Positions 53,440-55,435 of a DNA stretch of 64,000 bases are shown here, one piece after another; within the stretch, counting starts at the first letter, position 1; every line of letters begins with the position of its first letter. Below the pieces are notes generated by a model, which was not told the DNA's origin, ran no database searches, and saw nothing but the letters and a program-made list of their open reading frames with translations. The stretch lies in NCBI GenBank assembly GCA_963921795.1, contig OY997647.1, positions 52,298,458 to 52,362,457 of the forward strand, in the 5' to 3' direction. The position numbers and the translations under genes were made by a program. The DNA is from Nannobrachium achirus. Lineage: Eukaryota; Chordata; Actinopteri; Myctophiformes; Myctophidae.

Positions 53440-53945
53440 GTCAGTCATCTCCAAATGTGGGCATTGTTTCAGCATGCGGCTGTTACCATGGCGGGTACGC
53501 ATGCGCAACTGTATCAGTGATGTCAGAAATCTGGGTACTGTTTCACCCGTTTATGCCCATATATGGTGTTCCATGTCCAGGCCAGTCTGTGACGTCAGTA
53601 AATTAATAGTTGCGACCGTAGGTCGCCGTTTAGTATACGAACGGTCACAGCTTGACCGTATCGCTGTCTGTAACGCCTGACACTGTGGTTCCCCTGACAC
53701 ATCACTGTGACATCACATGTGACATCACATGTGACATCACATGTGACATCACATGTGACGTCAGATCCTCAGGGCAGGGATCTCCATATATGGGCATAAA
53801 AGGCTGACACTGATCACTGTGACATCACAGGTGACTTCACAGTGATGTCAGACACTCAGAGTAGGGATCTCCATATATGGGCATAAAAGGGATTGTATGT
53901 ATGATGTCAGACGACAGAATCCATATATGGCCAAGACAGATGGCC
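53440..53945. repeat. CArG/CRE-word dispersed repeat cluster
   Basis: CCATATATGG occurs at 53557, 53784, 53871 and 53931, usually as GATCTCCATATATGGGCAT then AAAAG. A 12-bp unit GTGACATCACAT repeats about four times at 53707-53757 and runs into a perfect TGACGTCA (53756-53763). TTGCGACCGTAGGTCGC lies at 53610-53626. Confidence 0.75.
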
Positions 53946-54008: not shown

Positions 54009-54084
54009 CCAGATTTATCAGCACTCGAACATTCTTATGCTGTGATTGGCAGGATACGAACGTTGAATAAATCACACTTCATGA

Positions 54085-54527
54085 TGTGACGGCCCTGCCC
54101 CTCTCTGCCTCACTGTTGGCTAGGCGCCTGCCTCGGTGTCATGGCAGGGAGGGGCAGGCCGTCAGCTCATTTGCGCACACCTTGGAGGGGTGTGGTCTGG
54201 GGAGTATAAAAGGAAGGCCTCCTGCCCAGCTCACACTCTCTCTCTCTCTTCCCAGGAGCAGGTCATGCTCAGGGAGCCACATGGCCTGTTTGGGGCCTAA
54301 GCCTTTTGTTTAGTTCTCTTTTACACACCTTACTACAACACGCACACGGCACACTACACACATGCATACACTGCAGACACCACTGACTACTGACTTGCTC
54401 ACACCTCACTTGCCTTTATGTTGACCATTGCTTTATTTCATTTAATTTAAGTAATAAATAATAATTTAAACGTTTTTGACTTGTGTGGACTCCCTCTTTT
54501 GTACTGCATTATTCCTGGTGCATGACA
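54085..54527 (+). mobile_element. LTR, full copy (left half of the palindrome)
   Basis: A 443-bp LTR beginning TGTGACGG and ending GACA (TG...CA rule), with a TATA box (TATAAAA, 54205-54211) and an AATAAA signal (54453-54458). The primer-binding site follows after three bases. It is a retrovirus-like or Gypsy-type LTR; the family is not determined. Confidence 0.75.
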
Positions 54528-54530
54528 AAA

Positions 54531-54547
54531 TGGGGGCTCGTCCGGGA
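54531..54547 (+). other. primer-binding site, tRNA-Pro type
   Basis: TGGGGGCTCGTCCGGGA is complementary to the 3' end of tRNA-Pro, the primer used by many gammaretrovirus-like elements. An inverted copy lies at 54553-54569. Confidence 0.8.
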
Positions 54548-54572
54548 GTTCATCCCGGACGAGCCCCCATTT

Positions 54573-54852
54573 TGTCAGTGTAGTGTGCCGTGTGCGTGTT
54601 GTAGTAAGGTGTGTAAAAGAGAACTAAACAAAAGGCTTAGGCCCCAAACAGGCCATGTGGCTCCCTGAGCATGACCTGCTCCTGGGAAGAGAGAGAGAGA
54701 GTGTGAGCTGGGCAGGAGGCCTTCCTTTTATACTCCCCAGACCACACCCCTCCAAGGTGTGCGCAAATGAGCTGACGGCCTGCCCCTCCCTGCCATGACA
54801 CCGAGGCAGGCGCCTAGCCAACAGTGAGGCAGAGAGGGGCAGGGCCGTCACA
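54573..54852 (-). mobile_element. LTR, internally deleted copy (right half of the palindrome)
   Basis: It is identical to the left LTR for 275 bp from its TGTGAC end, then jumps directly to the terminal TGACA. It lacks 163 bp that in the left copy hold the polyadenylation signal and most of the 3' part. Confidence 0.75.
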
Positions 54853-55157
54853 ATGAGATTATTCCTGCGCTCCGATGTGCTCTGGTTTCTACATTCCATT
54901 GATAAATGAGGGCCACTCTGTGTGGCCTCTCACTGGGGGAAGGATAGAGATTCTAATGACTTCAGATGGAGCGTGCGTCAACAGGATTCATTAGAATCCT
55001 AATGATTGTGGATGACGTCCAGATGTGCTCCATTGGACGTGGTGAACCTCCTGATCAGTTTGATTTTCACATAGTGTTCAGACTGAGCCCGGAGCGAGAT
55101 GCTGCTGTCTTTGCCACAGAAAAGGGGAATGATCAATGTGGTGCTGTCTGGCTGGAG

Positions 55158-55435
55158 TTAAAGGAGTAGTTCACCCCCAAAATGACCTTTTTGCTATTGA
55201 TTACTCACGCCATGGAGAATTGATTTGTCGCATTCCTGAGAGTCAATTTACCACCACTGATTCTGGATGGGGGCCCAAATGCATTTCATGGATTCAATGG
55301 ATGCAAATTTATTGTAATCAAATTCTTTTTTTTTTAGGAATGCAATAAAAAACATAAAATATTGTTGAACTCAAGTCTCCATGGCGTGAGTAATCAATAG
55401 AAAAAAAGTCATTTGGGGGGTAAACTACTCTTTAA
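55158..55435. mobile_element. TTAA-type MITE (TTAAAGGAGTAG family), copy 2
   Basis: TTAAAGGAGTAGTTCACCCC at the left and GGGGTAAACTACTCTTTAA at the right. The inverted arms are about 60 bp and include TTGATTACTCACGCCATGGA. TTAA is present at both ends. It is non-coding. Confidence 0.75.

Follow-up and report, generated by a model that had tools for sequence, protein, structure and literature searches.

Inverted LTRs joined through tRNA-Pro sequence in the genome of Nannobrachium achirus: a probable integrated dimer of plus-strand strong-stop DNA

We analyzed a 64,000-nucleotide stretch of the Nannobrachium achirus genome (contig OY997647.1, forward-strand positions 52,298,458 to 52,362,457), referred to below as the window. 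The data comprised one assembly of one genome (1.66 Gb). A base-by-base check of the window identified an insert at 54085-54852 that consists of two inverted LTRs, with their U3 ends outward, fused at their primer-binding-site ends. The features of the locus are as follows.

54081-54084, no strand: target duplication ATGA, left copy
54085-54527, plus strand: complete left LTR, 443 bp, TGTGAC...TGACA, U3 end outward
54205-54211 and 54453-54458, plus strand: TATAAAA and AATAAA, respectively, within the left LTR
54528-54530, plus strand: AAA linking the left LTR end and the tRNA copy, as in ordinary copies
54531-54547, plus strand: left tail, TGGGGGCTCGTCCGGGA, 17 bases copied from the 3' end of tRNA-Pro as far as tRNA position 60
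54548-54569, minus strand: right tail, GTTCA plus TCCCGGACGAGCCCCCA, a 22-base tRNA-Pro copy
54570-54577, minus strand: AAA and TGACA, the last 5 bases of the right LTR (54573-54577)
54577-54578, minus strand: joint of a 163-bp gap in the right LTR (equivalent of 54360-54522)
54578-54852, minus strand: right LTR, first 275 bp (U3 and part of R), U3 end outward
54853-54856, no strand: target duplication ATGA, right copy

The outer arms (54085-54359 and 54578-54852) are identical at 275/275 positions and the inner arms (54523-54547 and 54553-54577) at 25/25, around an axis that reads on the forward strand TGGGGGCTCGTCCGGGA (54531-54547), GTTCA (54548-54552), TCCCGGACGAGCCCCCA (54553-54569), TTT, TGTCA. 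Both outer ends of the insert are TGTGAC, exactly the U3 start of other family copies, and ATGA is present on both outer flanks. An earlier reading of the sequence (the original prediction) had already described identical 275-bp LTR arms in opposite orientation, the TGTGAC ends, the flanking ATGA and the loss of 163 bp from the right LTR, and all four descriptions held on recomparison. The joint of the 163-bp gap has no microhomology and no base in common, and a genome search with up to 3 mismatches returned the window itself as its sole match. With a joint unique at this stringency and, by eye, without intron-like ends, we ruled out that the gap is a splice or a shared variant. To the left of the insert, positions 53701-53890 of the window contain a 12-bp unit repeated in tandem (TCACATGTGACA) and a 49-bp direct repeat with its copies 87 bp apart, and at 55194-55400 there are inverted arms of 33 bp, 94% alike and 141 bp apart, which are possibly a small inverted-repeat element.

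The anatomy departs from the familiar forms of LTR insertions. Like a solo LTR, the insert has a target duplication around an LTR and no internal genes, but a solo LTR is a single LTR between target duplications, with no second, inverted LTR and no tRNA copy in between. An ordinary provirus has direct LTRs around internal genes, and the window insert has inverted LTRs and contains no internal element sequence. Two-LTR circles and autointegration products have a U5-U3 junction or internal sequence at the break, and the junction here runs tail to tail.

The window LTR was compared with 19 other loci of its family, which align from base 1 to base 443. Seven of these are 5' LTRs and the remaining 12 are 3' or solo LTRs. 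All seven 5' LTRs read AAA-TGGGGGCTCGTC and then AAA.., which is a 12-base match to tRNA-Pro. In the dimer, the match to tRNA-Pro is 17 bases long on the left arm and 22 on the right. The right tail reads TGGGGGCTCGTCCGGGATGAAC on its own strand, passes position 58 and reaches tRNA position 53, having kept just one of the three A at 57-59. The host tRNA-Pro genes, counted as eight distinct copies after a recount of 28 matches on 11 overlapping fetched loci, all carry GGTTCAAATCCCGGACGAGCC and an A at position 58, and the pattern GGTTCNNNTCCCGGACGAGCC gave 233 genome matches, nearly all of which, among the matches listed, read GGTTCAAATCCC. Because none of the eight distinct gene copies is followed by CCA, the CCA is added later, in the tRNA.

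A 24-base query made of the LTR end and the long site matched 21 places in the genome with up to 3 mismatches. The exact matches were both window arms and loci on C12 and C24, each with a still longer tRNA copy. Several other long-site places are elements with a long site of their own, and the 30 bases that precede it are unlike the LTR end of the window family. Among these 21 places we found no provirus of the window LTR family with a longer primer-binding site. A genome pattern search for an exact palindrome of two 12-base sites with a spacer of 0-30 bases returned only the window. The axis matches tRNA-Pro beyond the 12-base site of the family and is therefore a copy made from the primer tRNA. 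Plus-strand strong-stop DNA is defined by a tRNA-copied end of this kind, and the insert has such an end, absent from the element's own RNA, together with a start exactly at the U3 end. The original prediction had described two primer-binding sites 5 bases apart. Their position and symmetry stand, and the sites themselves are now better described as tRNA copies that are longer than the 12-base site of the family; the supposed spacer, GTTCA, reads as part of the right-hand copy.

The outer ends of the insert point to integrase. Six of the seven two-LTR pairs of the window family have a 4-bp target duplication (C3, C10, C12, C15, C17 and C24) and the seventh has one of 5 bp (C9); the pairs on C12 and C24 are 23 and 14 kb apart, and nested insertions were assumed for both. 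The duplication agrees at 4/4 bases in three of four solo LTRs and at 3/4 bases in the fourth, where two of the four (L017 and L019) resemble copies of one duplicated site. The ATGA/ATGA of the window is thus of the usual size. When the flanks of the insert were fused with a single ATGA, the search gave 35 non-self matches, 18 of which read through the point without an insert. We fetched and aligned five of these 18; all five were continuous, four with a few extra bases just left of the point, and ATGA was kept at one (L100). These uninterrupted places are paralogous repeats of 74-79% identity and not the same locus in another individual. Given the 19 full-length family loci and their mostly 4-bp target duplications, the structure in the window is far beyond chance.

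The internal genes of the family were examined in one copy, on C9. An open gag frame near its 5' end (L002) contains a SCAN domain (PF02023, E 3e-18), the integrase domains (H2C2, rve, p58_C) lie at 62912200-62913800 on the minus strand, and RVT_1/RNase H follows at about 62910660-62911817 on the minus strand, that is, 3' of the integrase. Integrase upstream of reverse transcriptase is the hallmark of the Gmr1-like group. SCAN and the domain order of this copy would fit a Gmr1-like Ty3/gypsy element as the parent of the window LTR, where SCAN itself is reported in only over half of Gmr elements (PMC4131045). The dimer differs from this putative parent in carrying none of its genes.

The genome contains at least five further inverted LTR joints with tRNA tails, on C17, C24, C7, C13 and C23. 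Three of these five have exact 4- or 5-bp target duplications, making four with the window. On C17 (L035), part of a U3 leads through CCC into the tail of a complete inverted LTR; the insert is 641 bp long and flanked by TTAC/TTAC, and its arms agree at 98/102 bases ahead of a G run. On C24 (L066), two full LTRs, whose arms differ by one gap in 381 bases, flank a complete tRNA-Pro copy and an 11-base filler (TCGTTGAACAA) in an 852-bp insert with CTGG/CTGG. On C7, an LTR with a 17-base tail is followed by GGGGGG, CCA and an inverted two-LTR copy, flanked by ATACC/ATACC; a 5-bp duplication was also present in both other copies of that family that were tested (TGCAC on C18, GGAGG on C5). In the C13 case (L088), one LTR has a tail of exactly 18 tRNA bases and the inverted LTR joined to it a tail of 9; this case tests little, with the right U3 end lost and the arms alike at 291/331 aligned bases. 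On C23 (L080), a 17-base tail links an LTR to a truncated inverted LTR, which continues into element sequence; the arms are identical at 564/564 positions, and the GAAC after the tail may belong to the tRNA or the LTR. No target duplication was found for C23: the predicted far end (..GGGATGTAACA-CCCGT) gave 0 exact genome matches, and a further 1.8 kb of fetched sequence contained no LTR match.

How these joints were found bears on their weight. C17 and C7 came from mostly-LTR queries that included axis or tail bases, and C13 alone came from an LTR-only query, with the best 40 candidates considered in each search; the best 40 candidates of a fourth LTR search contained no further inverted pair. 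C24 and C23 were found via the tail-plus-CCA search described below, so that their tail and CCA are not independent evidence. The six joints, including the window, are all different and come from several LTR subfamilies. The arms meet end to end in the window, with three shared bases (CCC) on C17, with GGGGGG on C7 and with an 11-base filler on C24. The joint tails end at tRNA position 60 (window left, C7 and C23), 59 (C13), 1 (C24) and 53 (window right), and on C17 at 61, or up to 64 as three bases are shared. In five of the six joints the point at which the other arm is truncated varies; the window joint has two whole tails, and what is missing there is an inner part of the right LTR. The results thus exceed the original prediction, in that the anatomy recurs, longer tRNA copies exist, and a strong-stop LTR is in one instance linked to a two-LTR copy.

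Longer tRNA-Pro copies are not restricted to inverted pairs. A query of the tRNA-Pro T-arm plus CCA matched 17 places in the genome, and the reversed control matched 0. The 17 places were counted as 13 loci, since five form one tandem array on C23, and a CCG A variant beside an LTR-like end (L065 on C3) was added, giving 14 loci: three dimers (window, C24 and C23), the array, and 10 others in which a longer tRNA-Pro copy follows an LTR-like end. At most of these loci CCA is present by query design and is not independent of the tail. The LTR beside the tail was checked by sequence match on C5 and by terminal bases plus duplication at C18:60827309; the others are LTR-like by eye. Tails reach the tRNA 5' end on C24, C12 and C3 and at C9:66164678 and C18:60827309, and come within 3 bases of it on C5. 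Others end earlier, at position 38 (C15, C18:848218) or 52-53 (C8, C9:65685574), and two end near 41 (C2) and near 33 (C23 array).

We compared the tails with the host gene at modified tRNA positions. Position 58 is substituted at seven of the 14 loci, by G on C5 and C12 and at C9:65685574 and C18:848218 and by T on C2 and C3 and at C9:66164678. It is missing from the window dimer and possibly from C23, and the other five tails (C24, C8, C15, C18:60827309 and the array) keep it unchanged. Three near-complete copies were compared ungapped with the host gene. The only difference of L063 is at 58, and those of L079 are an A-to-G change at 34 and a G-to-T change at 37. L061, which is flanked by GGAGG on either side, departs from the gene at 58, at 34 (again A to G) and in its final 3 bases, and nowhere else. 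By eye, L060 has one G fewer and L066 one G more in the 35-37 run (gene-like comparison CTTCGGGTG). We take positions 34 and 37 of eukaryotic tRNA-Pro to be I34 and m1G37, with partial support in the literature. tRNA-Pro carries m1A58 (PMC13191261), and work on zebrafish describes misreading at m1A, m1G and inosine and counts 34, 37 and 58 with the best conserved sites of modification (PMC11574265). Changes confined to 58, 34 and 37 point to a modified tRNA as the probable template.

Several tRNA-tailed loci have their own architecture. The 929-bp insert at C18:60827309 (L079 670-1598) is bordered by TAGCC at each end and contains one LTR-like sequence and a whole tRNA-Pro copy, without internal sequence; beyond the tRNA copy a short fold-back, CCCAATTGTTACA, precedes an LTR-like end. 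ARAGORN scored this copy as a tRNA-Pro(GGG) gene, and therefore such copies can be mistaken for tRNA genes. At C12:29882480 (L060), an LTR-like end and a whole tRNA-Pro copy with G at 58 lead directly into a zinc-knuckle-like coding stretch (by eye), as if the second strand transfer had gone to the wrong place. C18:848218 (L078) and C16:33448393 (L056) have a doubled primer-binding site, with a tail in between that extends to position 38 or about 13 bases, as if the second strand transfer had slipped. The array at C23:27852758-27869123 (L081-L085) repeats a unit five times at intervals of about 4 kb. Every unit carries a tRNA-Pro copy with T at 37 that is broken near 33, and no recognisable LTR was found in the array. 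At C2:9399442 (L064), a palindrome is bordered by inverted, outward-facing U5-like ends, and a partial tRNA tail (T at 58) is present at one of the two sides.

Our preferred reading, to which we assign a probability of about 0.8, is that two plus-strand strong-stop DNAs of a Gmr1-like Ty3/gypsy element were joined 3' to 3' to form the window insert, which integrated via its two U3 ends. The inverted strong-stop dimer proposed originally is supported by the tails, the target duplication, the uninterrupted paralogous sites and the five further joints. Plus-strand synthesis would start at the polypurine tract, copy U3-R-U5 and enter the tRNA-Pro primer still present on the minus strand. Its normal halt would be immediately ahead of the methylated A58, which would leave 17-18 tRNA bases as a tail, and it would sometimes read further. 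With recycling of the polypurine tract, the first plus-strand product would be displaced and become a dead end. The tails of two dead-end DNAs in opposite orientation could then be joined, producing a linear DNA with U3 at each side, and integrase would act on the two U3 ends and insert the joined piece with the usual 4-bp target duplication. The 12-base site followed by element bases in all seven ordinary copies fits the polypurine-tract recycling scheme, which we infer for the window family.

For the joining step, we give about even odds to reverse transcriptase having jumped from the end of a tail to another plus strand. The sealing of two tails by host end joining is a serious but less probable route, and snap-back of one strand an improbable one. 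The pattern of tail ends can be read as the primer end and the template end of such a jump, but the fillers and shared bases are accounted for just as well by host end joining. We also considered mutual annealing of the two tails via CCGG and dropped it; it would yield a shorter axis without GTTCA. Some observations weigh against the strong-stop-dimer reading. The GTTCA at the axis is only five bases long, the 163-bp gap in the right arm requires a second event, and the C23 case lacks a target duplication and has a right arm that continues into the element. Against it we also count the five tails with an unchanged position 58 and the two tails, near 41 and near 33, that end off the stops listed for another retroelement (see below).

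It is possible, though on balance unlikely, that the U3 ends of two separate cDNAs integrated at one target and that host end joining then sealed the tRNA-tailed break ends, which would give the same anatomy. The variety of the joints (end to end, shared CCC, GGGGGG, 11-base filler) is typical of end joining and favors this scenario. However, C17, C13 and C7 keep one tail near the stop before m1A58 with the other arm cut variably, an asymmetry that suits one arm acting as primer, though in only three cases. We consider it improbable that both arms derive from one molecule, a single plus-strand strong-stop DNA that folded back and served as the primer for its own copy. The arms are indeed identical in the window (275/275) and on C23 (564/564) and differ by one gap in 381 bases on C24, and the CCCAATTGTTACA that follows the whole tRNA copy of L079 is the continuation expected of a folded-back acceptor-stem copy. 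Yet the complete left LTR and the right LTR that is 163 bp shorter, with two tails end to end, would need a further jump, a hairpin offers one open U3 end and not two, and C7 joins an LTR to a two-LTR copy.

A later rearrangement, in which a deletion followed either the insertion of two oppositely oriented LTR elements close together or the inverted duplication of a solo LTR, is very improbable for the window. Inverted pairs and deletions are common in genomes, and such an origin may apply to C23, which has no target duplication. In the window, however, the axis has tRNA bases that are absent from ordinary copies, one matching target duplication lies on outer flanks that match paralogous uninterrupted sites, internal sequence is absent, and duplication-flanked inverted joints were seen four times including this one. 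Perfect palindromes are a known long-read artefact, but a fold-back read has a negligible chance of explaining an insert whose symmetry ends exactly at the LTR ends, whose arms differ by 163 bp, whose flanks are continuous in paralogous sites and whose anatomy recurs with different LTRs and joints. Equally far-fetched is a distinct family that replicates in inverted form, for although several inverted pairs exist, the six joints all differ and belong to several LTR subfamilies, and the window palindrome and the deletion joint were each found once.

Returning to the strong-stop dimer, its parts have precedents in known systems. In the polypurine-tract recycling model of Ty3 and Ty1, displacement turns the first plus-strand strong-stop DNA, with its tRNA copy, into a dead-end product that builds up and plays no part in making the final element; new copies do not inherit the tRNA sequence (PMC5371799). 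Like the dimer arms, this product consists of U3-R-U5 plus a copy of the tRNA end, and the non-inheritance fits the 12-base site of all seven ordinary copies here. The Ty3 by-product is found in particles, whereas here it would be integrated, doubled and inverted. The Ty3 tail of 12 bases (PMC5371799), compared with 17-22 in the window and a whole tRNA on C24, counts against our main reading.

A review places the stops of plus-strand synthesis on tRNA-Lys3 before m1A58, at psi55, m5U54 and position 37, and at the 5' end of the tRNA (PMC13191261). These HIV-1 stops (before m1A58, near 54-55, 37 and 5' end) resemble the tail ends at 59-61, 52-53, 38 and 1 described here, and the stop list, as that source gives it, lacks the two ends near 41 and near 33 (PMC13191261). 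The HIV-1 data concern tRNA-Lys3 synthesis products with ms2t6A at position 37, in contrast to our genomic insertions with tRNA-Pro (PMC13191261). Ty1 cDNA captured at double-strand breaks consists of pieces mostly from the 3' LTR region (PMC11724301), as here; that capture is break repair, whereas the 4- or 5-bp duplications and the U3 borders of our inserts point to integrase.

Strong-stop DNA, tRNA read-through and rearranged proviruses are known. We found no description of integrated inverted tail-to-tail strong-stop dimers in our searches of the open-access literature. Overall, it seems rather likely that strong-stop DNA, joined 3' to 3', is itself a substrate for insertion and that, together with the direct LTR-tRNA insertions, it has left a genomic record of stops and errors at positions 58, 37 and 34. 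This would be an insertion route with two U3 ends and no complete element, starting from a by-product that is discarded in models of Ty3-type replication. The tRNA tails read like a chemical record, in which past stops and misreadings at modified tRNA bases may be counted in any genome. Since the primer-binding site of the window family matches only 12 tRNA bases, the tails also bear on polypurine-tract recycling in animal gypsy-type elements.
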